A stretch of 64,000 bases of DNA from Neocallimastix lanati (nom. inval.) (lineage: Eukaryota > Neocallimastigomycota > Neocallimastigomycetes > Neocallimastigales > Neocallimastigaceae), in NCBI GenBank assembly GCA_016946835.1, contig JACVTC010000060.1:507501-571500 (forward strand), written 5' to 3'. A program made the translations under genes and the position numbers. Positions 5,178 to 63,645 of the stretch are shown here, piece by piece. How positions within the stretch are numbered: position 1 is the first letter of the stretch; each line of letters starts with the position of its first letter. The notes beneath the pieces are model-generated. The model did no database searches. It was not told the DNA's origin and worked only from the letters and a program-made list of their open reading frames with translations.

Positions 5178-5239
5178 ATATAATTTAATCTAAATAAAAT
5201 ATAATTAAGATAAATCAAATTTATTTTTAAATTAATAAA

Positions 5240-5830: not shown

Positions 5831-6006
5831 TTTTCTTATTTTTGTTTTTATTTAAATTATTATCATTAATACTCTAATTACTAATATATAAAATAAATAT
5901 ATATTTATATCGATATATTCTTTATAATCACTATTCTTTTATCAATTTTAAAAAAATAAAATAATAATAATATATATATAATTATTCTTAGTATTATTTA
6001 TTATTA

Positions 6007-6081
<75 letters not shown>

Positions 6082-18583: not shown

Positions 18584-18977
18584 TGGTACAAGATCTGAAG
18601 ATTTTATTAATAAAATAATATATTCTAATAATAAGGAAAAATTTAAAATATTATTCTCTAATTTTAAACCTAAATTAATTAATAAACTACTCTAATTTTA
18701 GTCTAAACTATCCTAATCTAAAAGAATCTAAACTAAGTTAAAATAACTTAAACTAATATCTTAATCTAAACTATTCTAATCTAAACTAAACAATTTCTCT
18801 AAATCTATTATTATTTCTATAAAATGTTTAATACAACTAATCTATTACTAAACTAATTTTATACTATACTTATCTTAATATTATACACTAAACACAAAAA
18901 ACTATTAATTAAACACTTTTAAAACATTAAATTTAGAAAAAAACTATTTAATAAATTTTAATTTATTTTAAACTATT

Positions 18978-19621
18978 TGTAACGGAGGTGCTTCTATAGT
19001 AACGGCGGGACGTGGTATAGAAACACAGAAAGGAGAAAACTCAATAGGTTTACACTATCTGTATAAATAATTCGTTTTATTAAAAATATTTTTTTATTAA
19101 TTATAAAATTTAAAGTAATTATTAATATTAATCAACAAGGTAATATTTCGAATTACTTATACGTTAATTATTATTAATAAAAGCACGAAGAAAAATATTT
19201 TCATTCGTGAAGTTCGCACTATTTATACTTTTAACGGAAAAACAGTTTTAACATGTAAAAATAATTTTAAAGAAATATTTAGAAATATGTTTGTAGTAAT
19301 TAATAATGTAAAGTTTCTAGAATATAGATTTTGATTGATGAAAATGAATCTTATCAAAAAGAATAAAATAATTTATATAATAAGAATTTCTAAATTCATT
19401 TCGGTTGAATTACGAACCGAAAGAATCTTTAACTTTCTATAATTTTATACAGAAAGAATATTCAAGAAGATATTATTAATAATTAATAAAATAATTAATA
19501 AAATAATTATTAATGCAAAATGGGTTGAGGTGTGAGTCGAACCCATGAAGTATTGGTCATAGTCAATGTAACTAACAATTGAACCAAAGTTCTAATTTTA
19601 CTGATTGAAGATTTCGTTACA
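18978..19621 (-). mobile_element. Solo LTR (644 bp), nested in X2 copy a
   Basis: Ends TGTAACG and CGTTACA, with a 5-bp target duplication CTATT on both sides (18973-18977 and 19622-19626). The empty site is seen in X2 copy b near 31560. On the minus strand it carries GTATAAATAG (about 19219-19228), a TATA-like motif also present in the gypsy LTR, which gives the orientation. A tRNA-like string lies near its right end (19520-19590). Non-coding fossil. Confidence 0.8.
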
Positions 19622-20019
19622 CTATTTAATTTATTATTTAACTTTTAGAAAATATTAAAAAAATAATATAATAATAAAGTCGTAAGAAAAAAAGGGAGAG
19701 AACAAAAGTATTGTGTTACTTTGTTCTTTTTTATACTAATAAAATATTTATTTGATTGGATTAAAAATAAAAATAAAAAAATTAATAATAAAAATTTAAT
19801 AATAAAAATTTAATAATAAAAATATAATAAACTTAAATTTTCTAAATTATTAAAATATTATATAAAAATTTTACAATATTAAATAATATAATTAATACAT
19901 GATTTTTTAATACATCTAATTATTTTTATTTAACTTTATAATATTCTATAACTAATATTTTAATATTCAATTTTTTATTATTTATTTATAATTGTTAATG
20001 ATATTTTTTACTTTAATAT

Positions 20020-20509
20020 TGTTAAGATAATAACTGAATTTCAATTCAATTTCAATTTCGATAATTCAGTTATTTGAATTTCAATATTAATAAAAAATAA
20101 TAATATAATAATTATTATTATTAAATTAACTTTATTAAAATATTTAGGAATTAGTCTAGGCCAACTAATTACTAAATATTATTAACATATTGAATTTAAT
20201 ATATATTAAATAATGTAAACACGTGATTGTCATATTAAATTAATTTCTACATATTATATTTTAATTATAAATTATAATATTTAGCAATATTTAATTCTTA
20301 TATTTTATTTATATTAAATATTTATATTATTATCTAACTTTATATTATCAATATCAAACTTATATTAATATTATTTACATATTCATATTAATAATTAATT
20401 ATTAAAATATTAATTATTAATATGAATATGTAAATAGAAAATATTTGTTAAGATAATAACTGAATTATCGAAATTGAAATTGAATTGAAATTCAGTTATT
20501 ATCTTAACA
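20020..20509 (-). mobile_element. LTR-like element, family C, copy 3, with long inverted ends
   Basis: Flanked by the 5-bp duplication AATAT (20015-20019 and 20510-20514), with the empty site in X2 copy b near 31965. Ends are TGTTAAGATAATAACTGAA and its reverse complement. About 55 bp at each end are inverted copies of each other, and each end is itself nearly palindromic. The TSD ends 62 nt before tRNA-Ser 3. Confidence 0.75.
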
Positions 20510-20575
20510 AATATTTTCTTTAAATAGTTTAATTTTTCTTTATTAAATTGTACCGTAACAGGCAACAATGTTGTA

Positions 20576-22562: not shown

Positions 22563-23770
22563 ATTTTTAATAAATGAGACCAAACCCTTTTACTTCTAAT
22601 TATTTAATGTTAAAAATCTCAATATTTGTTTATTTATTAACTTTATTTATTTGAAGCAAAAGGCTTATCTTATTAGAATACATAATTTAATGCTATTTAT
22701 ACATACAAAATACATTTGATGGATCATACATATTTTAATACATTAAATACATGTTTTAATATTAACTATATAAAAGAGGCTTATAAAAATAAAAAATTTT
22801 TAAAACTATATTCATAAACTATATAAACTATATATTAATTTAATATCCTATTTATTTATAATAAACTATTTAATATTTAAAATTATAATAAAAGTTGTAA
22901 TAAAATAAAAATATTAATTAAAATATTAATTAAATTTATAATCTAAAAATACTAATTTTCTAACATTTAATATTCTTAATATTTATTTTTTATTATTAAA
23001 ATTGAATTTAAAATAATTATGTAAATAAAAACAAATAATAACGAAATTAAATTTCCATTGATCTATTAGTGAATTTCAATTATAAATCCACTAATATTCG
23101 GAATATTATTTTATTTTTTTTGAATAAAATAATATTAATTATTCCAATTATTTTAATTTTTGGTACTGGTAGACTCGGGGTTGATTCTTATGGATTTAAA
23201 ATCAAGCAGGGGGGACGGGTATTACCCTGCTTTGATTTTAACAAAAAAAAAATTCTTATTATTAAAAAGTATTTATTATTTATTAATATAAAATTTTATT
23301 TTTGAAGTACACATATTTAATTTTTAAGAAATATTTACAATATTTATATTTTTTTATGAATTTAAAGTATAATTAGTTGTTTATAATTTAAGTAATTTTA
23401 TGGAATTATTGAATTAATTTTATATCAATAATTCATTTTTGTTTTAATTTTTATAAATATAATAATATAATATTCAAATATAATTTAATTAAAAATAATT
23501 ATGAAATAAATATATAGAAAATAGTTTTTACTATTTTCTTTGATATTTTTAAGTTAAATAAATTGTTTTTAAAGATTAATATAATAAATTTAATAATCTT
23601 TAATTATTTTAAATAATACTTGTAATTATTTTCAAAAATAAAATAAAATTTTTATAATATTTAATTAATAAATTTGATAATATTTAAATAATAATTTTTA
23701 TAATAAGTAATAATTTTTAATAATAATTTTTAATAATAAATTTAATTAATAATCTTAATAATTTTATAAT

Positions 23771-24090
23771 TGTTGACTGCACTCATAATTTAACTATATA
23801 TTTAATTTATTTATTTATAGTATTTATTTATATTTATGTGTATTTATTTATTTATATTTAATGATTACTTAAATGTATTATGATCTATCGTCTTGTATAA
23901 ATCTATGTTAATTATCTTTTAATATTTATTTAATTAATTTTTAATTTATTTTATGTTATGGAAAACGCATGTTGTAACATGTGACTTTATTACTTATTTA
24001 AAGCTGAAAGATAGATCATACACTTATTTCCCTTGTATACCATATTCCATAAGGAATATTATTATAGATCTAAATTTAATAAAGCTAACA
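23771..24090 (+). repeat. Copia 5' LTR
   Basis: 320 bp, from TGTTGACTGC to AAAGCTAACA (TGTT...AACA inverted ends). No difference from the 3' LTR was found by eye. Confidence 0.95.
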
Positions 24091-24110
24091 GATTAAGAGT
24101 CTCAGTTGAC
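24091..24110 (+). promoter_or_regulatory. Copia primer-binding site, probably tRNA-Lys half-molecule
   Basis: Abutting the 5' LTR, GATTAAGAGTCTCAG is complementary to the anticodon arm typical of tRNA-Lys(CUU) (CTGAGACTCTTAATC) and not to a tRNA 3' end. Some copia elements are known to prime from a tRNA half cut in the anticodon loop; use here is inferred. Confidence 0.55.
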
Positions 24111-24149
24111 TCATATCATTTATTATTAAAAGTACTTAATTAATATGCT

Positions 24150-27100
24150 TCACCGCTTCGAAATCATGCAAGACTTTAACTTAGCTAAGGACCAACTTTA
24201 ATGAGTGGAAATTCCTTATTGACAATGCAGCTAAACGTCAAGGTATTAAGGAATTCATGGAAGTCGACGTCGTTGGAAAACTTAATGATGTAGGTTTTAA
24301 TTACAACCCTAATGTCAACGATGTTATCAACAAGGTAATTACTAAGTTAATTACCAAAATGTTACCGCAAGCTCCTGCCGCACCTATTCGAAACAATAAT
24401 GCTGAGGTTAATCGAAACAATAATGTTGATATCAATACTCAGCTAACTAACTTTTTTGGTAATCCTCTTAATCATATCAGATTAGTTGAGGAAGCAGAAA
24501 GGATCGATGCTGACATGATACTCATGATCAGTAAGAATGTCGATGATTCTGTTTTAAGAGAAATCAGCAGACTTAATAATGGTTTCCGTATAATGGAAAG
24601 ACTCAAATCAAAATATGGAAATTCAAATGCTGATATGGAATACTGGCTTAAAAGGTTAAGAAGTATTAAAGCCAGAGATAGAAATCAAATCATCGAAAAG
24701 CTAGAACTTATGAAAGAAACTTTCGATGATATGGAAGAACAACATGTGGAGATCACTGATAAGGAAAAATTAAAATATCTATAACGTACTACCGGATGAT
24801 TATAAAAATATCATTCAAATTAATTTGAATAGTGACCCTAATGTATATATTAATAATCTCAAAAGTTTTATTTATGCAAAATCTTACCTAGAAAATTTGG
24901 AAGATAACAAAACCATTGAAAAAGATGATCCAATGGATCTAGATTTTATCAGTAGAGGAAGAAGAACTAGTAATTCCTCAAAGAAAAATGAACACAACAA
25001 CCATAATAACAAAAGCTCTAACTCTAAGAAAAGAGGAAAGCAAAATGGTAACCAATATAACAATAATAATAAAGATAATAGTAACAAAGACAATAATAAT
25101 AAATCATATTGTCACATTTGTGAAGTTAAAGGACACTCTACCAGAAACTGCATATATAATATGAAGACGAAGTCAAATCATAATAAAGGGAGGCAAGAAA
25201 AGCTTCAAGTAAAGACCACATTAAATGATCATCCAAAGAAGTCTTTACATTTAATAAGTAAAATTTCTGATCCAGACAGTGCCAGTAGTTATGACGATAA
25301 TTTTGATTTTAAAGACGCAAGGGCACTGATAGAAAAACAAGAAGAAATAAACATTAACAATAAGGTTAAATTTTCTGGATTAATTGAATACGTGAATGAT
25401 AGTTCTATTATTCCAAAGGAAATAACAATTCCTAATAAAAAAGAGGAATTATATGTAAACAACATCAATTATTATGAAGAAAATGATAAGACTAGTGAAT
25501 GGTTATATGATACTGGTGCTGGAGAACATATAACTAATGATTTTAATTTGCTAAATAATTTTATTCACTGCAAAATAAAGTTAAGATGTGCCAATGGGAC
25601 AATGTGTAGCTTCGAAGGATATGGTACTTACGAATGTTACATTAATGGAATATATGTACGACTAGACAAGGTATTATATTCAAAATCTGCAACTAAAAAT
25701 CTTATTAGTGGAATAGAACTGGCCAAAATAGGATATAGAGTCATTATTGACACTGATGATTATACACGTGATAGATTTAACTTATGGGGTCCAAATAATG
25801 TATATATAGGAACTTATTATTCTACAAATGATAATAAATTCTTAGTAAATACTTACAAGATTAATAAAAACTTTGAAGAAAAGGATAAAAATATTATGGC
25901 TTTAAACGAAGTTGATGAAAAAAGCCTTGAAATTTGGCATAGAAGACTAGGTCATTATTACCTAGAAAACATAAACAAATATCTAAGTTTACACCAAATA
26001 AAAACTCCTAAATGCATAGAATGTAAAGTAGCTAAAATGTCAAGGAAATCACACTGAGGAAAAACACCGAAAGCTACGAAAATATTAGAAATAATACATT
26101 CAGACATTTCAGGTCCATACAATTCATCTATCAATAATAAAAAATACTTTATTACATTCATGGATGAATTCTCAAGAAAAGTATGGATATATACTTTAAA
26201 ATCTAAAGCCGAAGCCCCCGAATTAATTGTGGAATTCTTCAAGTACTTAAATAACCAATTTGAAGAATATAATATTAAAATATTTAAATCAGATGGAGGA
26301 AAGGAATTTAAAAATAAAACAGTTAATAAATACTGTAAAGAAAATGGAATAGAAAAAACTTATTCTCCCCCAGGTTGTCCTGAAGTTAATGAAAAAGCTG
26401 AAAGAATAAACAGAACTCTTAGAAATTCAGCTAAAACTCTTCTATATTGGGCAGAATTATCAGAAAACTTTTGGAATTTTGCCATAAAACAGGCATGCTA
26501 CATATATAACTTAATTCCCCATTCAGGAAATAAATTTTTAATACCCAATGAAGTATTTTACAACAAAAAGGTAGAGTTAAAACATTTAAAAACTTTTGGT
26601 TGTGTGTGTTATTACAAGGATGATACACAACACAAATCAAAATTTTTACCAAATGCTAAGAAAGGCGTATTCTTGGGATTTGATGATAAAAAATATTCAT
26701 ATATTATCATGGATATTGAAAATAATAAAATACATTATACTAACGATGTAGAATTCGTTGAAGAAGAGCCTAGTAAACACAAATACGAAACAAGCAATTA
26801 TAAAGACTCTTACTTCTCATTTATGAAAGACAACAATAGAAAAGATATAAATCCAGAAGATAATATTATTAATGAAGATAATAATATAAATGAAGATAAT
26901 AATATAAATGAAGATAATAATATAAATGAAGATAATAATATGAACAATGAAAATAATTTTAATGGAAGAAACATCTTAAATGAAGAAAACATTTTAAATG
27001 AAAATATTAATAATGAAAGGACTACTAATACAGAACATAAAAGTAATTACATTAAAAATAAGCATGTCAATAATATATCGTTAAATGAAGAAAATCAAGA

Positions 27101-29777
27101 ATTTGATAATAAAGATATAAACCAGAAAAATAACCATAATTTAAATAAAGATGTTGAAATTAATTCTAAAATTAATCCTGAAATTAAAAATAAAAATAAT
27201 TGTGAATTTAAATTGAAATTCAATTTCAACAATGTTGACAAAAATAATTCTGAAAATAATTATTTGAATGAGATAAATAGAAATTTAGAAATAATAAATA
27301 AAAATTATAATAAAAAGTTTAGAAATAATACTAAGAATACCAATTTTAATTCTAACATTATTGAAAAATATAAACCAGAAGATCCTGCTTACGCCGCCTC
27401 AACTTCCAGCAGGAACAAAGGAAAAGAAAAAATAACCGAATTTGAAAATTTTGATAAAAATAAAATATTTTTAAATAATGAAAAATCAAGCCAAAATTTA
27501 CAGAATTTTACAATAAATAATAATAATATGAAAAAAAATTTTAATAATAAAAATTTTTCAAAAAATGATGAAAATTTTCAAGAAAATCTATTGGCTGAAG
27601 CAAAATCACATTCATATCATATCAAAAAATCTTCAAATAATTCAATAATAACATATGACAACAATAATGATTCACATAAATCTATTAATAATTCAAATAA
27701 ATCAATGAATATCAAAAATTTACCAAAAAATGATCAAAATTTTATTAATAAAAATTTTTTATCGAAAAATAATAAATTAATTCAACAAAATTCAAAATCC
27801 AGCGACTCTATGAAGAAAAACTATAATTTCTCCACTCCTACAATAGATATCAATAATATTCCTTCAGATAATAAAAATACGGTAATGGAAAATCTTAAAA
27901 ATATAACTCTTCCATATAATATTAATCAGAATTTACCTTTAATAACCGATTCTTCAACCAACCAAATTTCTCAAAAATCAGACGAAATTTCACCTACTAA
28001 TAATAACGAAATAAATAATAAATTTAGCAACAATAATATAGTAAACAAAGAAAATTATGCCCACAAATCTCTTATAGATGCATCAAGTGTTATTGATTTT
28101 AATAAAGATGAAATTATGGATGACATTGTAGCCAATACAGAATATGGCAACATCTATAAAAGACCACTTAGTCCAAAATATAAAGAGACTGCACCTACTA
28201 ATATTAGTTCTCGTAGAAAACTAGACCAAATCAACGGCATTATTATTGCTTCTATATTTTGTCACATTCCTAATACGTATGAAGAAGCAATAAACAGTGA
28301 AGACAAAAATAACTGGATTGAGGCTATTAATGATGAACTTAATAATCTTTATTCTAATAATATTATGACTTTTGTTAAAAATGTACCTAAAAACAAAAAC
28401 ATCATTACCACAAAATGGGTTTTCAACACTAAACGTGATTCAAATAATAATATTTATAAATATAAAGCTCGTTTAGTTGCTCGTGGTTTTAAACAAAAAT
28501 GGGGAATCGATTATGAATTAACTTATTCTCCTACTCTAAACATTGATGGTCTTAAATTAATATTCGCTATTTCTGCTGCTCTTAAGTGGAATATTTTCCA
28601 GCTAGATATAAAGGCCGCTTACCTTAATGCTCCGCTTGATAAAGATATTTATACTACTATTCCTAAAGGCGATACGCGCTTTGAGCGGGGATATTGGAAG
28701 CTCAACAAAGCTTTGTATGGCCTTAAGCAATCTGGTAGACAATGGTATAATACCATTAGAAAATTCCTAATAAAAAATAAGTTCATTCAAATTAAATCCG
28801 AACAATGTATTTTCAAATTTACAAAAAATAATATAACAAAATGCATTATCGTCTTATACGTGGACGACATGGTCATCGCTGGAGAAAACGAATACATTAA
28901 ACAAATAATAAATAAAATAAAATCAAAATTTAAAATATCTAAATGTGATCCAATTGAATACATATTAGGAATTGAAGTAAAGAAAGAAAATAATTCATAT
29001 ATTATTTCACAGAAAAATTTTATAAATAATATGTTATATAAATTTAATATTGATAATACAAAGAAAAGAAAAACACCATGTACTGGTGATAATAAAATAT
29101 CAGAAAACAATAAACCTTTCGATAAAACAATCTACAAAAGCGCAATAGGTTCCTTAATATACCTTTCGAAATGTACTAGACCTGACATAGCTTTCGCTGT
29201 AAATAAAGCTTCAAGAAAATGTGAAAATCCAACTATATCGGATTGGAACAAAATAATAAATATTCTAGAATATATTAATAGTACCAAAGAATTTAGGATA
29301 GAATATAATGGAAAGGGGGAGCTTGTTGCATATACCGACTCTGACTTTGCCGGCTGTTTGGAAGATAGAAAATCTACCTCAGGAGGAATAATACTTATGG
29401 GAACAAGTCTGATATGCTGGTTGTCCAAGAAACAAACAAGTGTTGCTACGTCTACTGCTGAAGCAGAGTACATAAGCACTTCCGAAAATATAAAGAAAAT
29501 ATTATGGATTAGAAATATAATAAAAGAAATTTTAAACAAATGGATAACTGTTAAAATCTATACAGATAATCAAGCAAGTAAGAAAATAATGGAGAACGGA
29601 GAAATAAATACAAAATTAAAGCATATAAGTGTAAGATATCATTTCAACAGGGACAATATTGCAAAGAAGAAAGTAAAATTAGAACATATTGATACTGAAA
29701 ACATACTAGCGGACATATTAACCAAGGACTCAAATGGACCAAAGATACAAAAATTTACAAACAACATTTTTATCTAA
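24150..29777 (+). pseudogene. Copia gag-pol region (fossil)
   Basis: Recognisable parts in order: a gag domain (24.2-25.0 kb); a CCHC zinc knuckle CHICEVKGHSTRNC (about 25.11-25.15 kb); protease with WLYDTGAGEHITND (about 25.5 kb); integrase zinc-binding WHRRLGH (about 25.94 kb) and catalytic core starting MDEFSRKVWIY; an unusual Asn-rich spacer of roughly 450 residues (26.8-28.2 kb); reverse transcriptase with YKARLVARGFKQ and YVDDM (about 28.86 kb); and RNase H with YTDSDFAGCLEDRKSTSGG (about 29.33 kb). Domain order places it in Ty1/copia. The reading frame is interrupted about twice, so the copy is treated as broken despite its youth. Confidence 0.9.
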
Positions 29778-29788
29778 AAATATTATTT

Positions 29789-29797
29789 GAGGGGGAG
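29789..29797 (+). other. Copia polypurine tract
   Basis: GAGGGGGAG directly precedes the 3' LTR, the expected plus-strand priming site. Confidence 0.85.
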
Positions 29798-30117
29798 TGT
29801 TGACTGCACTCATAATTTAACTATATATTTAATTTATTTATTTATAGTATTTATTTATATTTATGTGTATTTATTTATTTATATTTAATGATTACTTAAA
29901 TGTATTATGATCTATCGTCTTGTATAAATCTATGTTAATTATCTTTTAATATTTATTTAATTAATTTTTAATTTATTTTATGTTATGGAAAACGCATGTT
30001 GTAACATGTGACTTTATTACTTATTTAAAGCTGAAAGATAGATCATACACTTATTTCCCTTGTATACCATATTCCATAAGGAATATTATTATAGATCTAA
30101 ATTTAATAAAGCTAACA
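29798..30117 (+). repeat. Copia 3' LTR
   Basis: 320 bp, matching the 5' LTR throughout. Followed by the ATAAT target duplication (30118-30122). Confidence 0.95.
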
Positions 30118-30422
30118 ATAATAATATTTAATAGTTATAATAAATAAATTTTTATAATAATATTTAATAATTTTAATAATTTTATAATAATTTTTATAAT
30201 AATATTTAATTAATAGTTTTAATAATTTAGTATCTTAAAAGTATAATTTTAATATTTACAATTGTATTTTAATATATACATATATTTAATAATATAACAA
30301 TAAAGTAATTAATTAAAATTTATTTACAGTATTTACAAGTTAAAATTAATTTATATTAAAATAAATTAAATTTTATTATTAAGTTTAGGTTATCAAGAAT
30401 ATAGGAAAGTACAATTTAGTAA

Positions 30423-31117
30423 TGTTGAAATTATAACTGAATTGAAATCTCAATTTCAGCTATTTACATTTCAATAATTAAAAATATTATTTATTTAATT
30501 ATAAATAATATATATATTTAAATAATTAATAATTAATATAAATTCTTGTTTAATATTTAAAGGGTTATCTTAGGCCTAATAATTCTGAGAATATTAATAA
30601 ATAAGGTTTATATTAATAATTAATTTCAATGATACATTTGACGTCACGTGTATTTTATTTATATTATGTTTTTATATATGTTTACAACATATCTATATTA
30701 AATTCAATTATTCAAATTAATTATATATCCTTATATTTTATTATTATTTATATTATTATTATCTTATAATTAAATATTATTATTATGTAACTTACAAAGT
30801 ATAAAAGAAAGATGTAAAAATCTATCTTTTATGTTCTTTGTAAGGTTATTGTAAAATTACCTTAATAGTAATATATTATAGATAATTTATTATTAAATAA
30901 AATAAACAAATTTAAAATTAAATTAATTTGATAATTCTAATTATCAAAGTTTATTATAAATAAATTTTTATTAAACTAAACATTCAAATATTTATTATTT
31001 TTATTATATATCTATATAGTATATTACTATATAGACATATCGACTTAGTGAATATTTTTTAATAAACCATATTATTTTATTTAAATTTAAACTATAAATT
31101 ATATCAAAATCTTAACA
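30423..31117 (+). mobile_element. Solo LTR-like element, family C, copy 4 (695 bp)
   Basis: Ends TGTTGAAATTATAACTG and ATCTTAACA, with a 5-bp duplication AGTAA (30418-30422 and 31118-31122); X1 copy b near 36828 is the empty site. It lies 46 bp (after the TSD) from the end of X1 copy a. Before later insertions its TSD would have ended about 61 nt upstream of the tRNA, matching the other family C copies. Contains a CTTACAAAG inverted repeat (about 30790-30850) and a CACGTG. Confidence 0.8.
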
Positions 31118-31172
31118 AGTAAAGAATTATTAATAATAAAATAAAGGTTATTAATTCATTCTTTACGAGTAC

Positions 31173-32006
31173 TGGTACAAGATCTGAAGATTTTATTAAT
31201 AAAATAATATATTCTAATAATAAGGAAAAATTTAAAATAATATTCTCTAATTCTAAACCTAAATTAATTAATAAACTACTCTAATTTTAGTCTAAACTAT
31301 CCTAATCTAAAAGAATCTAAACTAAGTTAAAATAACTTAAACTAATATCTTAATCTAAACTATTCTAATCTAAACTAAACAATTTCTCTAAATCTATTAC
31401 TATTTCTATAAAATGTTTAATACAACTAATCTATTACTAAACTAATATTATACTATACTTATCTTACTATTATACACTAAACACAAAAAAACTATTAATT
31501 AAACACTTTTAAAACATTAAATTTAGAAAAAAACTATTTAATAAATTTTAATTTATTTTAAACAATTTAATTTATTATTTAACTTTTAGAAAATATTAAA
31601 AAAATAATATAATAATAAAGTCGTAAAAAAAAAAGGGAGAGAACAAAAGTATTGTGTTACTTTGTTCTTTTTTATACTAATAAAATATTTATTTGATTGG
31701 ATTAAAAATAAAAATAAAAAATTAATAATAAAAATTTAATAATAAAAATTTAATAATAAAAATATAATAAACTTAAATTTTCTAAATTATTAAAATATTA
31801 TATAAAAATTTTACAATATTAAATAATATAATTAATACATGATTTTTTAATACATCTAATTATTTTTATTTAACTTTATAATATTCTATAACTAATATTT
31901 TAATATTCAATTTTTTTATTATTTATTTATAATTGTTAATGATATTTTTTACTTTAATATTTTCTTTAAATAGTTTAATTTTTCTTTATTTAATTGTACC
32001 GTAACA
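31173..32006 (-). mobile_element. Solo LTR-like element, family X2, copy b
   Basis: About 834 bp from TGGTACAAGATCTG to CCGTAACA. Left flank is GTAC (31169-31172). The right-hand GTAC is split: GTA at 32007-32009, then later insertions. It lacks both elements nested in copy a and so proves their empty sites. Confidence 0.75.
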
Positions 32007-32009
32007 GTA

Positions 32010-32970
32010 TGTAATAATTTAATTATAAAATTAATTAGAATTAAATTATTAACTACAACTTAATAATAACTAAATAATAATTATTATTAAATTGAGAAAA
32101 CAAAAAAAGATAAATATACTTATCTTCTATAAGAAAGAGATTATTATAACTAATTATAATAAACTAATAACACAAAATTGTCAAAGAGAAAAGATTATTT
32201 TATTTTATTTTTTAAAATTGTTTTTTTATTAAAACTTACTTTATTAAAATAGAAATATAAAAAATTTATTAATGTTATTACTATATTATAATTGTTATAA
32301 TAATAACTCTTGATTTCTCAAAGAGAATTCAAGAGCCTTATTTATACTTTTTTGAAAAATAAGGTTAAATTAAAAAATGTTTTCTAATCTTAACAAATCT
32401 CTTATTTAGGAAAAGATTAGAGAGAAAAACCTAGATAAGATTTTTGATCGATATTCTATCCATATCGATCATCGTTTCAATTAGGTAAAACCAATTACTT
32501 TTAAAAAGTGATTGGGAAAAACCCTAATTGACCGATTAGCTAATCTAATTTAATTGATCGAAAATAAAAGAATAAAATAATAAAAGATATTTCGACCATA
32601 AAATCATAAATTTACAAATAAGGAAAATAACATAATAATGATATTAATAAACATAATACAGAATACATTATTAAGTACATATTAGAATACATAATATATT
32701 TGTTTACAATTTAATTAAATAAATAAACTAAGACTAATAAATTTAATAATTAAATGTATAATTAAATAAACTATAATTATTTATAAATGTATAAATAATA
32801 ATTAATTAAATAAATTTGTTGTATTAAATTAATGATTATTTAATATTGAGTTTAATAAATTATTAATAATATTTAAATGAATAAATATTATATAATTAAA
32901 TAAAGTTATAATTATAACTTAACTAAGAAAATATAATTATTTTATTTAAAAATAATTATAGAATCTTACA
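32010..32970 (-). mobile_element. LTR-like block A1 (gypsy-type LTR)
   Basis: From TGTAATAATTTAATT to AATCTTACA. The left flank is CAGTA; the right duplication was not found. On the minus strand it carries GTATAAATAA near 32340 next to a CTCTTGA hairpin, features shared with block B. A partial relative lies at 54.66-55.2 kb. Non-coding. Confidence 0.55.
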
Positions 32971-32976
32971 AAAAAT

Positions 32977-34546
32977 TGATACGGGCTGGGGTTGAAACAC
33001 TAAGATATTCAAAACAAAAAAAAATAAATATTAACACATAACTATAAAAATAAATTTGGAAACAAGAAAAAAAATTAAATTTTAAAATATTCTTTATTTA
33101 AATTTAAAATTAAAATTATTTGTTCCAAGTATTAAAAAGAAAGAAATTTATTCTTCTTTTTATACTTTTATTTTAATACATTTTATTTATTATTAATATA
33201 TTCTTTATAAAAAAAAACTATTATAACTATTTTATTTTAATTTTTAACTATTATTTTAAATTATTTTTTAATAAAAAAATAACATTTATTAAATTAAAAT
33301 ATAAAAAGTTAATTTGGAGCTTGTATCACGAAGGGCATTCCGGGCGGTAGCTTCTTCTTGATATTGTTATTCAGAGAGAGAATTATACAGAATTGATATT
33401 TTCTGTATTTTAGATCATTTTTATTATTGGAATTCTTCTGTATTTTAGTTCATTTTTATTTTAATAAAGATTTAATTTATTTTTAATTTTTGTTTTATTT
33501 TTAGTTTATTTCAAAGGTTTTAGAAAATATTATACAGAAACTTATAATTCTGTATTTTACATCAAATATTTATTGAAATAGGTTTTTATTATTCTTAATA
33601 TAAAAATAAGAATTAGTAATGATTTAAATATTATATAATTTTTAATAAGAATATTTAGTTATAATTTTTATTATATTTAATATTAATAAAATATTTAATA
33701 ATTATTTTTATTAGATTTGATATTAATAAAAGAATTTTATAAGAATATTTAATAATAATTTTTATTATAAAAGATTTTAATAAGAATATTTAATAATAAT
33801 TTTTATTATATTTAATATTAATAAAAGAAATTTATAAGAATATTTAATAATAATTTTTATTATATTTAATATTAATAAAAGATTTTAATAAGAATATTTA
33901 ATAATAATTTTTATTAGATTTGATATTAATAAAAGCATTTTATAAGAATATTTAATAATAATTTTTATTAGATTTGATATTAATAAAAGAATATTTAATA
34001 AGAATATTTAATAATAATTTTTATTATATTTAATATTAATAAAAGATTTTTTTTATTAGAATATTTAATAATAATTTTTATTAGATTTGATATTAATAAA
34101 AGCATTTTATAAGAATATTTAATAATAATTTTTATTATAAAAGATTTTAATAAGAATATTTAATAATAATTTTTATTATATTTGATATTAATAAAAGATT
34201 TTAATAAGAATATTTAATAATAATTTTTATTAGATTTGATATTAATAAAAGAATTTTATAAGAATATTTAATAATAATTTTTATTATAAAAGATTTTAAT
34301 AAGAATATTTAATAATAATTTTCATTATATTTAATATTAATAAAAGAATTTTATAAGAATATTTAATAATAATTTTTATTATATTTAATATTAATAAAAG
34401 AAATTTATAAGAATATTTAATAATAATTTTTATTATATTTGATATTAATAAAAGATTTTAATAAGAATATTTAATAATAATTTTATTTTATTATTATTAA
34501 GAGTATTTAATAGGAAATACAAGGTATTTAGTGACACCCCGTATCA
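32977..34546. mobile_element. LTR-like block A2 with an internal minisatellite
   Basis: Begins TGATACGGGCTGGGGTTGA (resembling the start of X1) and ends ACACCCCGTATCA, so the ends are inverted (TGATACGGG). GTAC follows at 34547-34550. It contains a short GC-rich island (about 33316-33370, CATTCCGGGCGGTAG) and a minisatellite of about 0.9 kb. No reading frame. Confidence 0.5.
33630..34490. repeat. Minisatellite, unit about 54-56 bp, roughly 16 units
   Basis: Units begin AATATTTAATAATAATTTTT and end in AAAAGATTTTAATAAG or AAAAGAATTTTATAAG. Some units are shortened to about 38 bp. Variants alternate in a higher-order pattern, suggesting expansion of multi-unit blocks. Confidence 0.85.
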
Positions 34547-34550
34547 GTAC

Positions 34551-35016
34551 TGATACGATATTTTATTTATGTATCTAAATTAATATTTATTTATGGGCAA
34601 TGACAATAAGGAATTATGACAAAATAATATATTCTAATATTAAATAGAAATAACACATACAATAATACAAAATAAAGTAATAAATATATCTTTTTAATGT
34701 ACTCTTTATTTATTATTAATTATTAATTATTACATCAATTATTATTATTACTCTCTTACATAAATATTATAATTAATTATCTCAAATATACATAATATCT
34801 CTTTTTAACTATACTAAAATAAAATATAAAAATAGCTATTTATGTGAATTAATTTATCATAAGTATATACTTATAAATAAAAGAATTCTCCGTTTAATAA
34901 TTATTATTCTAAAATTATATATATTATTCTAAAATTATTATTGACCAATAATATTTAAGTATTTCTTTAACCTAAAGAATCTACCTAAATACAATTTTTA
35001 TAGTGGTCACGTATCA
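34551..35016. mobile_element. LTR-like block A3 (466 bp)
   Basis: Begins TGATACGATATT and ends GTGGTCACGTATCA. GTAC flanks the left end (34547-34550) and GTA the right (35017-35019), with the C displaced by block B. Distant similarity to 12153-12330. Non-coding. Confidence 0.55.
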
Positions 35017-35019
35017 GTA

Positions 35020-35853
35020 TGTAAAGAATTAATTAAAAATATTTAATTATATTAATAATTAATTCTTTCTACAATTAATAATAAAAAATATTATTAATTG
35101 AGATAAAATTAAAAAGTATAATATAAAAATTGAAAACGAAAATTTAAAAACTTAGAGTTTATTATAAGATTATAATAAACAACACTAAAAGTAGGTTAAG
35201 AGAATTTTAGAAATTATTTTATTATAAAAATTTTTTATTAGAAGTAATTTTAAAATATTTGTGTTAATTATTATAATTTCTTATAATAATAACTCTTGAT
35301 TATTTTTAGAAGAATCAAGAGTCCTATTTATATTAATTTGATTTCTAATCTTGGAAAATTATCTCTATCTAGAAAAAGATTAGAAGAAAAAACTAGATAG
35401 ATCTCGATTGGTGTTTAATTACATCAATCTTTAGTTAATAAGAAAACCCGAATAAGGGAGAAAACTTATTAACTAATTATATATTAATTTTATTAATATT
35501 TAATCACAAGTATAATTAAATAATTAATTCTTTTAATTATCTTAATTAAAAGTCCAAGAAATAATATAATTTAATTATTTCTTGATTAAATAAAATTTTC
35601 ATTTTAATACAATTTAATTTTTCTTAATTAAATAGAATTTAACATTATTTTAATACAATAATACATTATTATAATTTAATATATTAATTATTGATAATTT
35701 AATTTAATTTTAAAACAATAACATTAATTAATAATTACTATGTGACATAATTAATAAAATTATTCATAAAATTTTATAAAATAATAAACTTTAAATATTA
35801 ATTTTTTAATAAAGAATAATAATTATTTTGAATAATAATTATAATTCTTTACA
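35020..35853 (-). mobile_element. Solo LTR, block B (834 bp)
   Basis: Inverted ends TGTAAAGAATTA and TAATTCTTTACA, and a 5-bp duplication CAGTA (35015-35019 and 35854-35858). It carries an exact 10-bp hairpin ACTCTTGATT...AATCAAGAGT next to a TATA-like string on the minus strand (about 35323-35333). Size and layout match the gypsy LTR at the right edge. Confidence 0.8.
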
Positions 35854-35859
35854 CAGTAC

Positions 35860-36878
35860 TGGTAGACTCGGGGTTGACACTTAGATATTTAAAATCAAGC
35901 AGGGGGGGACGGGTATTACCCTGCTTTGATTTTAAATAAAAAAAAAAAAATAATTCTTTATTAAAAGTTATTTATTTTTTTTATTAATATAAAATTTTAT
36001 TATTTAAAGTACACATATTTAATTTTTAAGAAATTGTTACAATATTTATATTTTTTTATAAATTTAAAGTATAATTAATTGTTTATAATTTAAGTAATTT
36101 TATAGAATTATTGAATTAATTTTATATCAATAATTCATTTTTGTTTTAATTTTTATAAATATAATAATATAATATTCAAATATAATTTAATTAAAAATAA
36201 TTATAAAATAAATATATAGAAAATAGTTTTTACTATTTTCTTTGATATTTTTAAGTTAAATAAATTGTTTTTAAAGATTAATATAATAAATTTAATAATC
36301 TTTAATTATTTTAAATAATACTTGTAATTATTTTCAAAATAAAATAAAATTTTTATAATATTTAATTAATAAATTTGATAATATTTAAATAATAATTTTT
36401 ATAATAAGTAAAATTTTTAATAATAATTTTTAATAATAAATTTAATTAATAATCTTAATAATTTTATAATAATATTTAATAGTTATAATATATAAATTTT
36501 TATAATAATATTTAATAATTTTAATAATTTTATAATATTAATAATTTATAATAATTTTTAGAATAATATTTAATTAATAATTTTAATAATTTTATAATAA
36601 TTTTTATAATAATATTTAATTAATAGTTTTAATAATTTAGTATCTTAAAAGTATAATTTTAATATTTACAATTGTATTTTAATATATACATATATTTAAT
36701 AATATAACAATAAAATAATTAATTAAAATTTATTTACATTATTTACAAGTTAAAATTAATTTATATCAAAATAAATTAAATTTTATTATTAAGTTTAGGT
36801 TATCAAGAATATAGGAAAGTACAATTTAGTAAAGAATTATTAATAATAAAATAAAGGTTATTAATTCATTCTTTACCA
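35860..36878. mobile_element. Solo LTR-like element, family X1, copy b (1019 bp)
   Basis: From TGGTAGACTCGGGG to TTCTTTACCA, flanked by GTAC (35856-35859 and 36879-36882). The right TSD occupies -14 to -11 relative to tRNA-Ser 4. It lacks the copia and family C insertions seen in copy a. Confidence 0.85.
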
Positions 36879-36892
36879 GTACCAACGTGGTA

Positions 36893-36974
36893 GTCACTTT
36901 GGCGGAGTGGTTAACGCGGTGGCCTGCTAAGCCATTTCCCTTTGGGAGCGCAGGTTCGAGTCCTGCAGGTGACG
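36893..36974 (+). tRNA. tRNA-Ser(GCU), copy 4
   Basis: Same sequence as copy 1, with an intact fold, anticodon GCT and a T5 terminator run downstream. The pile of LTR insertions at 23.17-36.88 kb separates it from its near-palindromic element at 23122-23144; element-to-tRNA spacing is exactly 33 nt when the pile is removed. Confidence 0.95.
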
Positions 36975-39557: not shown

Positions 39558-39590
39558 CAATTATTTTTAATTTCTGGTATCGACATGGTA

Positions 39591-42421: not shown

Positions 42422-42444
42422 GAATAAAATAATATTAATTATTC
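42422..42444 (+). promoter_or_regulatory. Near-palindromic element upstream of tRNA-Ser 6
   Basis: Last base 33 nt before the tRNA. An unoccupied GTAC lies at 42463-42466, exactly -14 to -11, the tetramer used by the X1 insertions at tRNA 4. Confidence 0.55.
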
Positions 42445-42476
42445 CAATTATTTTAATTTTCCGTACCGATATGGTA

Positions 42477-58762: not shown

Positions 58763-58782
58763 AGAAATTTTTAATTTTCAAT

Positions 58783-59081
58783 TGTTAAGGTTTTAGAGAA
58801 TTAAATAAAAATAAAGTAAGGAAACACAAATTTTATTTATTTATTTATTATTTTTATTTATAAATTTATTTGATTTTATTTGATGATATTTAAAAATTAG
58901 TAGCAAAATTTACAACTATTTATACTTTTTTTCAAGGCATAAAAGTTGTTCTTGCCACTAAATTACATTTTATTTATTTTTTTTTTTTAAAAACTATTAA
59001 ATTTAAATTGATTTTTATAATTAATTATATAAAATTTAATTATAACAATATAAATAAAATACATTTATAATATTAATAAAA

Positions 59082-59133
<52 letters not shown>

Positions 59134-59629
59134 TTATTTATTTAAAAATATCTAAAATATTACTAATAAGAATTTATTTAATTGGCTATAATTTTTATTA
59201 CAATCTGTTAAAATATTCAAATAAAAATAAAAATACTATTCTAATATAAAGGTTTTTAATAAAATAAAATATTTTTCAATATAAAATAAAACATTTCGAT
59301 ATAAAATTTTATAATAAAAAGTTAAAATATAATATATAAATTTTTAATTATCAATATATAAAAATATTATTAATATAAATTTTCATTATTAATATAAAAA
59401 AAATAAGATTTATTATTAATATTGCTAATATAAGTTTTAAATATATAAAAATATTACTATTAATATAAGATTTAATATAAAAATATAAAGTTTAATATAA
59501 TTTTTGATTTAATTTTTGATCTTTGGATTTAAAAATTTATTAAAGTACAAAAATAATAATGTACACATAATGTATTAGAAATAAATCGTAGATTTAATTA
59601 AGAATGCATTATTTAGTACATTCTTATCA
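58783..59629 (-). repeat. Gypsy 3' LTR (inferred limits, about 847 bp)
   Basis: On the minus strand it would run from TGATAAGAATGTAC to CCTTAACA, giving imperfect inverted ends. It contains GTATAAATAG (about 58915-58925), a TATA-like motif in the element's sense orientation, and is close in length to block B (834 bp). It also holds a 48-base T run (59084-59131). Limits need the other LTR. Confidence 0.6.
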
Positions 59630-59647
59630 AGATGCCCCGACGAAGAC

Positions 59648-62600
59648 TCAAGCTTCTCTGTAAGCGGAGTTAAACTTTACTAAATTTTTAAAGTGAACAT
59701 TCCTATCGAGTTGCTTTCCAGTCTTCTGATCGATTAGGGTTGCCGTGTTGAATTGAATTTTTAAAATTTTAAATGGTCCATTGTAATATGGTTCTAGCTT
59801 AGTGCGGCTAAAGTTTCTAACAAGAACAAGATCACCAGCCTTTAATTCTTTTCCTTTTTTCATACTTATTTGTTCTTCTCGTCTTGTTGCCCAATACTTG
59901 TTAGCATTCTTCACATTTTCGCATGCTTCTCTAGTCCATTGATAATGACGAACAAATTTTTCCATTAAGATTTCATCATATGATTTACCTGCATTTTCAA
60001 TTGTTCTTATGGCTATATCATAAGGCTGTTGGTCTTCTCTTCCATATACTAATTCAAAACTAGAATGTCCAGTAGCTGTATTTTTGGTAGTTCGAAGTGC
60101 CCATAAAGCAGAAGGTAAAACTTCATCCCAATCTTGATTTTTCCTTCCTAATAAACGGAGTAATTTTCCAATTTCTTTATTTCGATTTTCAGTAAGGCCA
60201 TTTGATTCAGGGTGGTAAGTAGCTACAAATTTAACATATACATCATAAAGATCAAGAAAGATTTTAGTCATATCAGAAGTGAATTGGACTCCATTATCAG
60301 TAGTAATAACTTGAGGTACACCATGTCTTGCAAAAACGTTTATTAAAAATTTAATTATATCAGAGGAAGTTATGTTTTCAGTGGGTTCGGCTTCAACCCA
60401 TTTGGTAAAGTAATCAACAGTTACTATAATATATTGATTATTATTTCTTGTTTTTGGTAACGGTCCTATAATATCTAATCCTAAATGCACAAAGGGACCC
60501 TCCACTTTAGTTGGATGGTTTTCGGTTGGTTCTGGATATGGTTGAGGACGATTTAATTGGCATTTTTCACAATTACTAACAATTCTTTTGATATCTTTAA
60601 TCATATGATTCCAATAAAAGTTTTTCTTAAGTCTTTGATATGTTTTGTAATATCCTTCGTGGCCAATATTATGAGCTTCTAAAATTAATTTAAACCTTTC
60701 ATTTTCGTCCGTTATTAATTTTCTATAATTTCCATTGTCGATAAAGTAATCTTCACCATCAATAACAGTAAACTTTTCATTAATAAATTCCTTTATAACT
60801 TTAGATAATAATTCTTCATTATTTCCATTAGTAATTTTTGTTAATAATATCTTTCTCTCTTCCTTACTTTTCATTCTTGAAAGAGCATCAGCTAACACAT
60901 TCTTTTTACCTGATTCATATTTTATATTAATTCCAAGCATACTAGCGGTTAGACACCATCTTGTTTGCCTTGCATTCAAAGGTTCTTTATTTTTAAATAA
61001 ACCAACTAATGGTTTATGATCTGTGTAAATAGTTGTAGGTAATGGATTTCCTTCAATATAAGATTTAAATTTAGTCATACAGTAGAATAAAGCTGTTCCT
61101 TCCAAATCTGTGATACCATAATTCTTTTCAGCTTTCTTCAAACTTCTACTTATAAAGTGTATTGGATGCTCCTTACCGGTTTCTTCTTCTTTTTGTAAAA
61201 GAACTCCACCAATTCCATTATACGAAGCATCAGTTCTAATGATAAAAGGTTTGTCAAATGACGGAAATTTTAGAATAGGTGCATTGATTAATTTTTCTTT
61301 TAGGAGTTCAAAGCTTTCTTGTTGTTCTTTATTCCATTCATATTTAGTATTCTTTTTCAATAATTTACATAAAGGTGAGGTAATTTGAGCATATTTAGGG
61401 ATAAAGTCACGATAATACCCTATTGCTCCTAGAAATGATCTTAATTCATGAATTGATGAAGGGGCTTCCCACTTCTTAATAGCTGTTATTTTACTTTCCA
61501 TGGGACTTAATCCTTTAGTAGTAAGTTTGTGACCTAATACATCAACTTCAGTTTGAAGAAAATGGCACTTTTCAATATTAATTTTTAACTTGTTTTCTTT
61601 AAATACTTCTAATACTTGTTTAATATGAATTAAATGTTCTTCGATACTTTTTGAATAGATCAAAACATCATCAATAAATACATAAACAAATTCACCAATA
61701 AAAGGGAATAAAATTTTATTCATTTCTCTTTGGAAGGTTGAGGGAGCTCCAGTAAGTCCAAAAGGCATAACCTTAAATTGATAATTTCCAAACTTAGTAG
61801 TGAAAGTGGTTACTTCAACGCTTTCTTCATCCATTAAGATTTGGTGAAAACCAGAAAATAAATCAAGAGTTGTAAATATTTTAGCTCCTCCCAGACTATC
61901 AAAAATTTCATCTATATATGGAACTGAATAAGAATCTTTTTCTGTCATATCATTGACTTTTCGGTAGTCAATGCACAAGCGCCACTTTCCATTGTGTTTT
62001 AGAATAAGTACTACTGGAGATGACCATTCTGAACAGGATGGTTCTATCAATCCTTTCTTAATAAGTTTTGTAAGTTCTTCTTTTAAGATATCTGATTTTA
62101 ATTTAGTTAACCTATAACTTCTTAATTTTACTGGCTTTGAATTTGCTTTTAAACGGATCTTATGTGGTGAAAGTTTAGAAGGAGTTAGTTCTTCTGTTGA
62201 AGTGGCAACTATGTCAATCATTTCTTTGAGAATTTTAATAATTTGTTCTTTATAATCTTTATTTAAGGTACTTAAAAATTCATCACTCTCAATAAATTCC
62301 ATTGGAGTTAATTCCTTTATAATTTCCTTTTCATTATTCGTTTCTTTAACTTTTCTAATAGTGCAAATTATACTTTCTTCATCATAATATTGATTATTTA
62401 TTTTAGCTATTTCTTCGTATTCACTTTCTGACAAAAGTTTACATAAACTGTTTAAGGTCGGATGAATAAATAAACAATGATCGATTTGAGTTTTAAAGTT
62501 TATTAACATATCATAAAAAGAGTCTTCTTTCTCAATAATTCTAAAGTCCGCATTAAATTCATAATTTTTAATTTTTACTGGTAATCGAACAATAATTCCT

Positions 62601-63463
62601 TCCGAGTATTCTTCATCTTGTGTTGCTAGTTGGATTCTTCCACGACTTTTTCCAACTGTTTCATATTCACCAGGTAATTTATCAAAATACTGCTTAGTAA
62701 CGATGCTTAGGTTACTACAAGAATCAATTAAAAGTTTTCCTAGTACTCCGTCAACACTTGCATCAACCATTGCTAAGTCTTCTTCGGCTACTTCATTACT
62801 TTTACTTATGTAGCTATGATCATAGTTATTCACTAATAAAGTTCGTGCTATTACATTGTCTACAGTTCCAATTATTTTAGATTTTTCTAACTTTAAACCT
62901 TGAGTTAATTGTGAACGAATTTTCGGACATGCATTCAAGAGTTGACCTATCGTAATACTGGATTTAAGATTATTTAAATCATCCATAATATTGTAAGGTT
63001 CTTTATTATTCATCATTTTGATATTCCTTTTTACTAACTGAGTATTTTCATTATTAGTTTCTTTAGTTTTTGTTGAAATTAATTTTTCCAAAGTATTAGT
63101 TTTATTTTGTTGATTATCTTTATTCATTTCTATATCTTCTATTTCATTATCGATTACAAGTATATCTTCAGATTCAACTTTTTTCTTTCCTTTTGATGAA
63201 TAATTGTTGTTTTCTTCTTTACTTTCTCTTACTCTTGTTATATTTCTTAATTCCTTTTCTTTTTGTTTTTCTTTGTTAATATTTGGTTGAGTTAAAATTG
63301 AAGGAAGTATTTGATTTTTATAAACTTTATTTGGTTTATTATGTAGCTCATTTTCTTTCTTCTTTCTTAAAGCAGGAGTTGCGAAAGGACGTGGATTATC
63401 TTTTAAACTTTTATGTACTTTCTTGGAATTATTTTCTTCCTTTTCGCTGTTATTATCATTCAT
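59648..63463 (-). CDS. Gypsy pol polyprotein
   Basis: One open frame of 1271 residues from its first Met. In order: a charged N-terminal part; a retropepsin-like domain around LLIDSCSNLSIV (about residue 245); reverse transcriptase with KWRLCIDYRKVN, MPFGLTGAPSTFQ and YVFIDDVLIYS (about 490-610); RNase H with IRTDASYNGIGGVLLQ and YTDHKPLVGLF (about 740-840); integrase with an H-H-C-C zinc finger (HNIGHEGYY...NCEKC), a D-D-E core around DIIGPLP and TTDNGVQFTSDM, and a GPF-type C-terminal module (YYNGPFKILKI). No chromodomain is evident. Gag and Pol lie in different frames that overlap, as in family members that make Pol by frameshifting. Confidence 0.92.
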   Translation of the reverse strand: MNDNNSEKEENNSKKVHKSLKDNPRPFATPALRKKKENELHNKPNKVYKNQILPSILTQPNINKEKQKEKELRNITRVRESKEENNNYSSKGKKKVESEDILVIDNEIEDIEMNKDNQQNKTNTLEKLISTKTKETNNENTQLVKRNIKMMNNKEPYNIMDDLNNLKSSITIGQLLNACPKIRSQLTQGLKLEKSKIIGTVDNVIARTLLVNNYDHSYISKSNEVAEEDLAMVDASVDGVLGKLLIDSCSNLSIVTKQYFDKLPGEYETVGKSRGRIQLATQDEEYSEGIIVRLPVKIKNYEFNADFRIIEKEDSFYDMLINFKTQIDHCLFIHPTLNSLCKLLSESEYEEIAKINNQYYDEESIICTIRKVKETNNEKEIIKELTPMEFIESDEFLSTLNKDYKEQIIKILKEMIDIVATSTEELTPSKLSPHKIRLKANSKPVKLRSYRLTKLKSDILKEELTKLIKKGLIEPSCSEWSSPVVLILKHNGKWRLCIDYRKVNDMTEKDSYSVPYIDEIFDSLGGAKIFTTLDLFSGFHQILMDEESVEVTTFTTKFGNYQFKVMPFGLTGAPSTFQREMNKILFPFIGEFVYVFIDDVLIYSKSIEEHLIHIKQVLEVFKENKLKINIEKCHFLQTEVDVLGHKLTTKGLSPMESKITAIKKWEAPSSIHELRSFLGAIGYYRDFIPKYAQITSPLCKLLKKNTKYEWNKEQQESFELLKEKLINAPILKFPSFDKPFIIRTDASYNGIGGVLLQKEEETGKEHPIHFISRSLKKAEKNYGITDLEGTALFYCMTKFKSYIEGNPLPTTIYTDHKPLVGLFKNKEPLNARQTRWCLTASMLGINIKYESGKKNVLADALSRMKSKEERKILLTKITNGNNEELLSKVIKEFINEKFTVIDGEDYFIDNGNYRKLITDENERFKLILEAHNIGHEGYYKTYQRLKKNFYWNHMIKDIKRIVSNCEKCQLNRPQPYPEPTENHPTKVEGPFVHLGLDIIGPLPKTRNNNQYIIVTVDYFTKWVEAEPTENITSSDIIKFLINVFARHGVPQVITTDNGVQFTSDMTKIFLDLYDVYVKFVATYHPESNGLTENRNKEIGKLLRLLGRKNQDWDEVLPSALWALRTTKNTATGHSSFELVYGREDQQPYDIAIRTIENAGKSYDEILMEKFVRHYQWTREACENVKNANKYWATRREEQISMKKGKELKAGDLVLVRNFSRTKLEPYYNGPFKILKIQFNTATLIDQKTGKQLDRNVHFKNLVKFNSAYREA

Positions 63464-63645
63464 TTTTCTTTTTATAGTATTTATAATGATATTATCCTCA
63501 CTTTCAGTTGTGTCACTAAAATCAGATTCTTCAGATTCTTTATTAAAGGAATTATTATCAATTGGGGTATTCTTGGTAAAAGTATTATTTTGTAAATTAT
63601 TTAATGAAGCTATTGTTTTGTCATTGGGAGTGCTTCTGCTCCCAT

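Follow-up and report, generated by a model that had tools for sequence, protein, structure and literature searches.

A pile of long terminal repeats on a probably reused target site upstream of a tRNA-Ser gene in the gut fungus Neocallimastix lanati

Ty3 of Saccharomyces cerevisiae, a Ty3/gypsy element found a few bp upstream of the start site of RNA polymerase III (Pol III), inserts in both orientations. A remark in the study on Tj1 is in keeping with this (PMC4600332). Tethering of Ty3 to the Pol III initiation complex, with TFIIIB, has been shown, and the element duplicates 5 bp of its target (PMC8632968). Insertions of Tj1 of Schizosaccharomyces japonicus lie 1-10 bp before the start of tRNA genes and have a fixed orientation, and the authors of that study knew of no other wild-type long terminal repeat (LTR) element with a fixed orientation (PMC4600332). 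DGLT-A of Dictyostelium lies 13-33 bp upstream of tRNA genes, also as solo LTRs, and repeated insertion at one tRNA gene has been described for it (PMC5006619). Further Ty3/gypsy families near tRNA genes are Beta/Tca8 in Candida and Ylt1, Tyl3 and Tyl6 in Yarrowia (PMC5911963, Table 1). Here, we describe a pile of seven LTR-like blocks immediately upstream of a tRNA-Ser(GCT) gene, the fourth in a stretch of 64,000 nt (contig JACVTC010000060.1, positions 507,501 to 571,500) of the anaerobic gut fungus Neocallimastix lanati, which will be referred to as the window.

The pile (23163-36892) was read base by base and its borders were tested by script, and the 199-Mb assembly with its 762 contigs was searched for related copies. 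These analyses confirmed that the retroelement pile is real and that the phenomenon is genome-wide. With a probability of roughly 90%, we attribute the pile to several Ty3/gypsy-type families that integrated repeatedly, in a site-directed manner, approximately 11-16 nt upstream of the tRNA gene; the interpretation offered by the original prediction, successive insertions into one tetramer beside the tRNA gene, is supported and for the most part correct. The layout itself can be read directly: 4-bp and 5-bp duplications, the same arrangement at many tRNA genes, and the older elements on the tRNA-distal side at six junctions.

The system resembles Ty3 in its position just before the Pol III start, but the families termed X1, X2 and A3 duplicate 4 bp instead of 5 bp. 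Tj1 runs in the same direction as the tRNA gene and has 5-bp target-site duplications (TSDs), whereas X1, X2, A3 and a further family, GYP, run mostly in the opposite direction with 4-bp TSDs. DGLT-A inserts in either orientation (PMC5911963), and the passages considered describe no ordered stack with shared duplications; likewise, neither stacks nor two TSD classes are described there for Beta/Tca8, Ylt1, Tyl3 and Tyl6, which moreover reside in ascomycete hosts. The strategy of targeting tRNA leaders is already known, as is repeated insertion at one tRNA gene in Dictyostelium (PMC5006619). Four points are new as far as the literature listings show: the fungal lineage of the host, the large share of tRNA-Ser leaders that are occupied, the presence of ordered stacks whose members share duplications, and the tendency of one clade towards antisense insertion; at the level of such listings, no published report on tRNA targeting in anaerobic gut fungi was found. 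Retrotransposons directed to tRNA genes, known from ascomycete yeasts and Dictyostelium, are now extended to a distant fungal lineage, in which they occur at most of the tRNA-Ser leaders examined. With a genome of 199 Mb, a dense arrangement of genes probably does not explain this targeting.

From left to right, the pile consists of X1a, X2b, A1, A2, A3, B and X1b (Table 1). All seven blocks start with TG and six end with CA, the end of X1a being GA. The words between them are GTAC, GTA, AAAAAT, GTAC, GTA and CAGTAC, with GTAC at both outer ends, and 10 nt separate the rightmost GTAC from the start of the tRNA gene. Most of the blocks abut GTAC or the overlapping CAGTA. The original prediction had counted at least six blocks. 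The stack and all quoted junctions were recovered from the sequence, but A1 and A2, which had been taken together, are two blocks, bringing the total to seven, and their junction carries no target repeat: positions 32971-32976 read AAAAAT where CAGTAC would be expected, which is the same length with no duplication, and the right duplication copy of A1 is absent. X1a is split by a copia element whose LTRs are identical at 320/320 positions and whose open frames are interrupted rather than read-through. It sits at no special place and is young and untargeted. Strands of the solo LTRs in the window were deduced from the one full-length copy of each family that was examined, L161 for X1, L162 for X2, L163 for B and L164 for A3 (L numbers denote fetched loci of the assembly, B0-B9 individual B copies).

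Comparison of the window with itself demonstrated that the left and right flanks of the pile are the two halves of a repeated tRNA-Ser unit. Aligned to the unit of the sixth tRNA-Ser gene, the left flank (22599-23166) corresponds to 41908-42466 and the right flank, from 36879 onward, to the sequence from 42463 onward. The two overlap by exactly 4 bp, and this overlap is GTAC at -14 to -11 of tRNA6. The unoccupied site that had been proposed for tRNA6 is consequently identified by the outer flanks of the pile, and GTAT occupies the same place before tRNA5. As GTAC occurs only 80 times in the 64-kb window, its presence at the pile borders is not random.

Target duplications were counted in 42 non-redundant insertions of X1, X2 and A3 with both flanks readable, excluding two A3 rows in which the right flank was A3's own interior. 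An exact 4-bp repeat was found in 36 of the 42, compared to a mean of 1.5 and a maximum of 8 when flanks were mispaired (5000 mispairings); among the rest, four pairs match at 3 bp and one at 5 bp. Eleven B copies yielded an exact 5-bp duplication in six cases and a 4-bp duplication in none. X1, X2, A3 and B are indeed flanked by a shared tetramer or an overlapping pentamer, as had been stated, the TSD being 4 bp for the first three and 5 bp for B. The duplications of X1, X2 and A3 comprise 27 different tetramers, and X2a, an X2 copy at the third tRNA-Ser gene, is flanked by GGCA; GTAC is therefore a target duplication and not a part of the elements, the opposite outcome having been named beforehand as speaking against the prediction. 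For GYP, a single case was read, in which the TSD CAAT is repeated in the leader of the eighth tRNA-Ser gene.

To what extent other tRNA genes carry such elements was assessed from their leaders. The first 30 bases of the tRNA-Ser gene have 51 exact matches, seven inside the window and 44 outside, and 40 of the latter were fetched together with 20 leaders of tRNA-Arg(TCT) (two pairs identical). By script, 32 of the 40 tRNA-Ser leaders matched other loci strongly, with homology stopping 8-20 nt before the gene in 26; 25 of these stops are LTR ends, and the remaining one (L094) is an empty unit leader. Reading of the same 40 leaders showed that 32 of them end in an identifiable LTR terminus, at 12-20 nt from the gene and with approximately 19 different tails; eight leaders are empty or unclear. 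Within the window, two of the seven leaders are occupied. Nine of the 20 tRNA-Arg leaders have a tRNA-Asn gene directly upstream, and ten of the remaining 11 contain an LTR end by reading (eight distinct; L156 weakly). The tRNA-Asn/tRNA-Arg arrangement is found in L141-L145, L150, L153, L159 and L160, with the genes 14 nt apart in L141 and no LTR between them.

Elsewhere, A3 sits 14 nt before tRNA-Asn and tRNA-Leu genes, X2 14 nt before tRNA-Met, X1 16 nt before tRNA-Gly and B 16 nt before tRNA-Arg. Distances obtained by the leader script were 13-16 nt for X1, X2 and GYP, 16-17 nt for B and 15-20 nt for A1. On average, the 5-bp group lies about 2 nt farther from the gene than X1, X2 and GYP, and all 17 leader cases assignable to families of the window fall within 13-20 nt. 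The genome-wide preference for tRNA flanks, for which a search with the element ends and a tabulation of distance and TSD had been proposed, was thus borne out, copies being located at tRNA leaders or in stacks.

Each genome search with an LTR had 707 to 7070 candidates, of which about 40 were scored, and the copy lists are accordingly partial. They yielded full-length LTR pairs at constant spacing for X1, X2, B, A3, A1 and GYP (34 of 40 X2 and 38 of 40 A3 matches were used, partial matches being excluded, and the GYP copy of the window was added). Spacing on the same strand was 7.55-7.87 kb in six of eight X1 pairs, 6.6-6.7 kb in five X2 pairs, 5.02-5.03 kb in three B pairs with one at 5.8 kb, and 7.1-7.3 kb in thirteen GYP pairs. 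For A2, no full-length pair was present among 40 genome matches, though its ends look LTR-like. Paired LTRs that start with TG and end with CA, together with the domain order reverse transcriptase (RT), RNase H and integrase in Pol (one copy each), characterize X1, X2, GYP and B, which on this basis are classified as Ty3/gypsy-type LTR retrotransposons. X1 and GYP have the three domains in a single frame; X2 has them in one of its two pol frames, and B has them spread across three frames.

The full-length X1 copy comprises a Gag frame with a zinc knuckle and a Pol frame. The first frame of X2 has no Pfam match and was taken as Gag by its position, Pol being split over two frames, and B encodes a Ty3-like capsid, a protease and a Tf2-1-like SH3 domain. 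Full-length A3 measures about 2.9 kb and contains a single frame related to the Gag of X2 (E 3e-28) and more weakly to that of X1 (2e-8), both being single comparisons; it is a gag-only non-autonomous element. Identity of X1 Pol is 65% to GYP, 55% to X2 and 39% to B, the last over RT and RNase H, and X1 Pol matches Ty3-G Gag-Pol (PDB 7q5b) with E 6.5e-109. Pfam detected no chromodomain in X1 or GYP. Candidate primer binding sites, TGG-starting stretches whose complement ends in CCA, are located beside the LTRs of X1 and X2, and none was seen for B. Among 120 listed relatives of X1 Pol, with 33-99% identity, most come from ENA, JGI or other metagenome sources; they include two Orpsp1 entries (49% and 53%), a prefix which we take to denote Orpinomyces, along with a small number of proteins from plants, fish and arthropods (33-43%).

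With the window oriented as here, the internal regions of X1, X2, B, A3 and GYP lie on the minus strand and run against the tRNA genes. A script run on 67 leaders (47 of tRNA-Ser and 20 of tRNA-Arg) found the same end facing the tRNA gene in 10/10 leaders with GYP (6), X1 (3) or X2 (1), nine of which are distinct as two GYP leaders are identical; A1 (2:1) and B (1:1) occur in both directions. Adjacent LTRs of X1, X2, A3 and GYP agree in direction at all 11 distinct junctions of the fetched loci, or at 16/16 when A1 and B are included. By coordinates alone, 17 of 20 junctions agree, and two of the three opposite ones involve A1 or B. The 4-bp clade X1/X2/GYP/A3 is thus mostly antisense to the tRNA gene, a bias that we call strong rather than fixed because of one GYP-GYP exception. 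With two-way 5-bp elements at the same place, this clade offers a natural comparison for the docking of integrases on the Pol III machinery.

The order of insertion was deduced from overlapping duplications: where a later duplication contains part of its neighbour, the neighbour is older, and overlaps of at least two bases were counted. The script found eight left and two right overlaps. One-base overlaps at L018 and B1 (left) and at L036/L035 and A3_5 (right) were set aside as uninformative, as was A3_4, in which the left neighbour is a start of the D type described below and not an LTR end. The five remaining left cases and the B element of the window make six junctions (L046, L034, B3, B5, the B of L048 and the window B), at all of which the left neighbour is older (right 0). 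Left is the tRNA-distal side in the window; in B5 it points away from a tRNA-like sequence, and in L046, L034 and L048 it is the distal side judged by how X2 usually lies.

In the pile itself, X2b is older than A1, since only GTA remains of its right duplication copy and A1 has CAGTA at its border, and A3 is older than B, because the TSD CAGTA of B includes the CA of A3. These are two of six junctions; the other four are symmetrical and fit any order, since an element between two GTAC copies hides which copy was used. The predicted gradient from oldest on the left to youngest on the right therefore agrees with the six genome junctions, at which the tRNA-proximal element is younger, and within the pile it extends to X2b before A1 and A3 before B. 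The more disturbed state of X1a, which had been read as a sign of age, does not serve as one, as X1a belongs to a different X1 subgroup than X1b: it is 96-99% identical to 39 other listed relatives and 92.7-94.9% identical to X1b. For the same reason, divergence between X1a and X1b was dropped as a measure of age. The nearest-relative score was likewise dropped as a measure of layer age, as it gave only a rough left-to-right fall and the search scores a sample. Exact reuse of the site makes tRNA leaders an archive of layers, in which the succession of active elements can partly be followed without a molecular clock.

Place, distance and sequence independence match the expectation for tethering to the Pol III complex, from which we infer that the initiation complex, via TFIIIB or TFIIIC as for Ty3, most likely tethers the gypsy integrases. 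The spacing from the gene, rather than the sequence, would then define the site. With every insertion, the target tetramer beside the tRNA gene would be restored and older elements moved outward, and subsequent LTR-LTR recombination would leave solo LTRs. Copies of the X1/X2/GYP/A3 group mostly integrate with their coding strand running against the tRNA gene, and two gypsy groups with different duplication lengths share one narrow target zone before it.

Near-identical stacks on several contigs (L002/L006; L026/L027/L028), the A1-A2 junction, which has no target repeat, and the unequal flanks of B7 might suggest that existing stacks were duplicated or recombined unequally and that the pile grew chiefly in this way. 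Such a process is very unlikely given that 36 of 42 insertions possess their own intact target repeat, and it would not create the overlapping registers seen as GTAG/AGAG in L009 and CAGTA/GTAC in the window. Alternatively, the elements could recognise LTR ends (CA, four nucleotides, TG), with tRNA genes being incidental; for most X1 and X2 insertions that were read, an LTR end or head is indeed found 3-8 nt away, at least to one side. However, X2a at tRNA3 and GYP at tRNA8 sit in plain leaders that lack a flanking LTR, at several tRNA isotypes the LTR ends stop 12-20 nt short of the gene, and the duplicated sequences vary. The leaders surveyed already hint at stacks that regularly terminate in a Pol III gene with constant spacing, which this reading would not survive. 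This explanation is slightly more improbable still. The least probable is wide integration followed by survival just upstream of tRNA genes only. A spread of 13-20 nt in the 17 leader cases and exact TSD lengths for each family are hard to obtain by survival alone, and the young copia in X1a argues that insertions elsewhere survive, even though gene-poor, AT-rich surroundings would tolerate insertions and the sample consists of fixed copies.

Several observations weigh against repeated site-directed integration as the full account. An Rfam scan detected a tRNA in only seven of 60 four-kilobase loci (1.5-kb flanks), the base tRNA mostly being unreached; in most of the other 53, the tRNA side is next occupied by another LTR or by the interior of the element itself. 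B0 is located within a tRNA-like sequence instead of before it, and the tRNA-distal side could be assigned at five of the six ordering junctions, all but B3. No matching duplication exists at A1-A2, at B0, B6, B7 and B9, at X1 in L013, L028 and L014/L012, or at X2 in L036/L035; rearrangement or shifts must therefore have occurred as well. As to direction, one GYP-GYP junction (C164, with a 90% identical copy) is in opposite orientation, and non-adjacent A2 (L009, L020) and A1-like (L033, L044) LTRs face the other way. The genome LTR search also missed the window's own GYP copy.

Table 1: Features of the window (positions of the 64,000-nt stretch; tRNA genes numbered from left to right)
Feature	Position	Strand	Remarks
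X2a solo LTR at tRNA3	18584..20560	-	two nested inserts; TSD GGCA (-15 to -12); strand inferred
D, LTR nested in X2a	18978..19621	-	TSD CTATT; tRNA-like A and B boxes near 5' end, read by eye
Second insert nested in X2a	20020..20509	.	490 bp; long terminal inverted repeats; TSD AATAT (5 bp)
Leftmost GTAC	23163..23166	+	outer target-site copy
X1a solo LTR	23167..31168	-	TGGTAG...TACGA; split by copia; strand inferred from full-length X1 (L161)
copia nested in X1a	23771..30117	+	LTRs 23771-24090 and 29798-30117; 5-bp TSD ATAAT
X2b solo LTR	31173..32006	-	left GTAC, right GTA cut by A1; strand inferred from L162
A1 solo LTR	32010..32970	.	left flank CAGTA, CA from X2b end
A2 LTR-like block	32977..34546	.	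TGATACGGG...CCCCGTATCA; tandem repeats
A3 solo LTR	34551..35016	-	gag-only non-autonomous element; strand inferred from L164
B solo LTR	35020..35853	-	5-bp TSD CAGTA both sides, including CA of A3; strand inferred from L163
X1b solo LTR	35860..36878	-	TSD GTAC both sides; adjoins tRNA
Rightmost GTAC	36879..36882	+	-14 to -11 of tRNA4
tRNA-Ser(GCT) number 4	36893..36974	+	base of the pile
Empty site GTAT at tRNA5	39577..39580	+	
Empty site GTAC at tRNA6	42463..42466	+	
GYP, Ty3/gypsy-type element in tRNA8 leader	58783..64000	-	LTR 58783-59629; TSD CAAT 58779-58782
GYP pol frame	59648..63679	-	RT, RNase H, integrase zinc and core domains

One of the two inserts in X2a, termed D, belongs to a family of elements of about 5.9 kb with LTR pairs at a spacing of about 5.27 kb; the one copy examined contains Gag, a Tf2-1-like SH3 domain and a chromodomain. 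Copies of X1 (L003, L009, L020), GYP (L041) and A3 (L129) begin 15-18 nt from D-type starts, near which two heads of unassigned family at 18 and 16 nt (L004, L015) and an A1-like head at 9 nt (L009) are also found. tRNA-like boxes at a matching distance downstream were read for A3 alone. With E values up to 5, Rfam gave no match in six loci with tRNA-like flanks, ARAGORN found no tRNA in L055, L112 and L130, and relaxed ARAGORN on D produced one unconvincing antisense call only. D may offer X1, GYP and A3 a second place to dock, a lead that strengthens the targeting idea without proving it. A wider picture, in which most tRNA leaders are one-way docks for many gypsy families with one clade nearly fixed in antisense, stacks record waves, and the Pol III promoters of D are extra docks, is tentative, and we consider its chances somewhat below even. 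Helenus TRIMs (terminal-repeat retrotransposons in miniature) are fungal elements whose LTRs contain tRNA-derived sequence and which have 5-bp TSDs (PMC10886601). D resembles them in its tRNA-like LTR and 5-bp TSD, but Helenus elements are short and non-autonomous, whereas D is the LTR of a much longer, Gag-, SH3- and chromodomain-containing element and was not assigned to Helenus.

Pieces related to the other insert in X2a, at 20020-20509, are present before tRNA2 and in the leaders L080 and L061. The eighth tRNA-Ser gene lies at window position 66809, past the window edge; the stretch 58135-58782 resembles the leader and repeats of the tRNA-Ser unit, and GYP separates it from this gene. At the other end, the window contains three near-identical bacterial-like sugar transporter genes in inverted arrangement (292-1734, 3741-5177 and 7067-8503), and a sugar transporter protein of the window is 98% identical to a JGI-source protein and 85% identical to a protein of Neocallimastix californiae.

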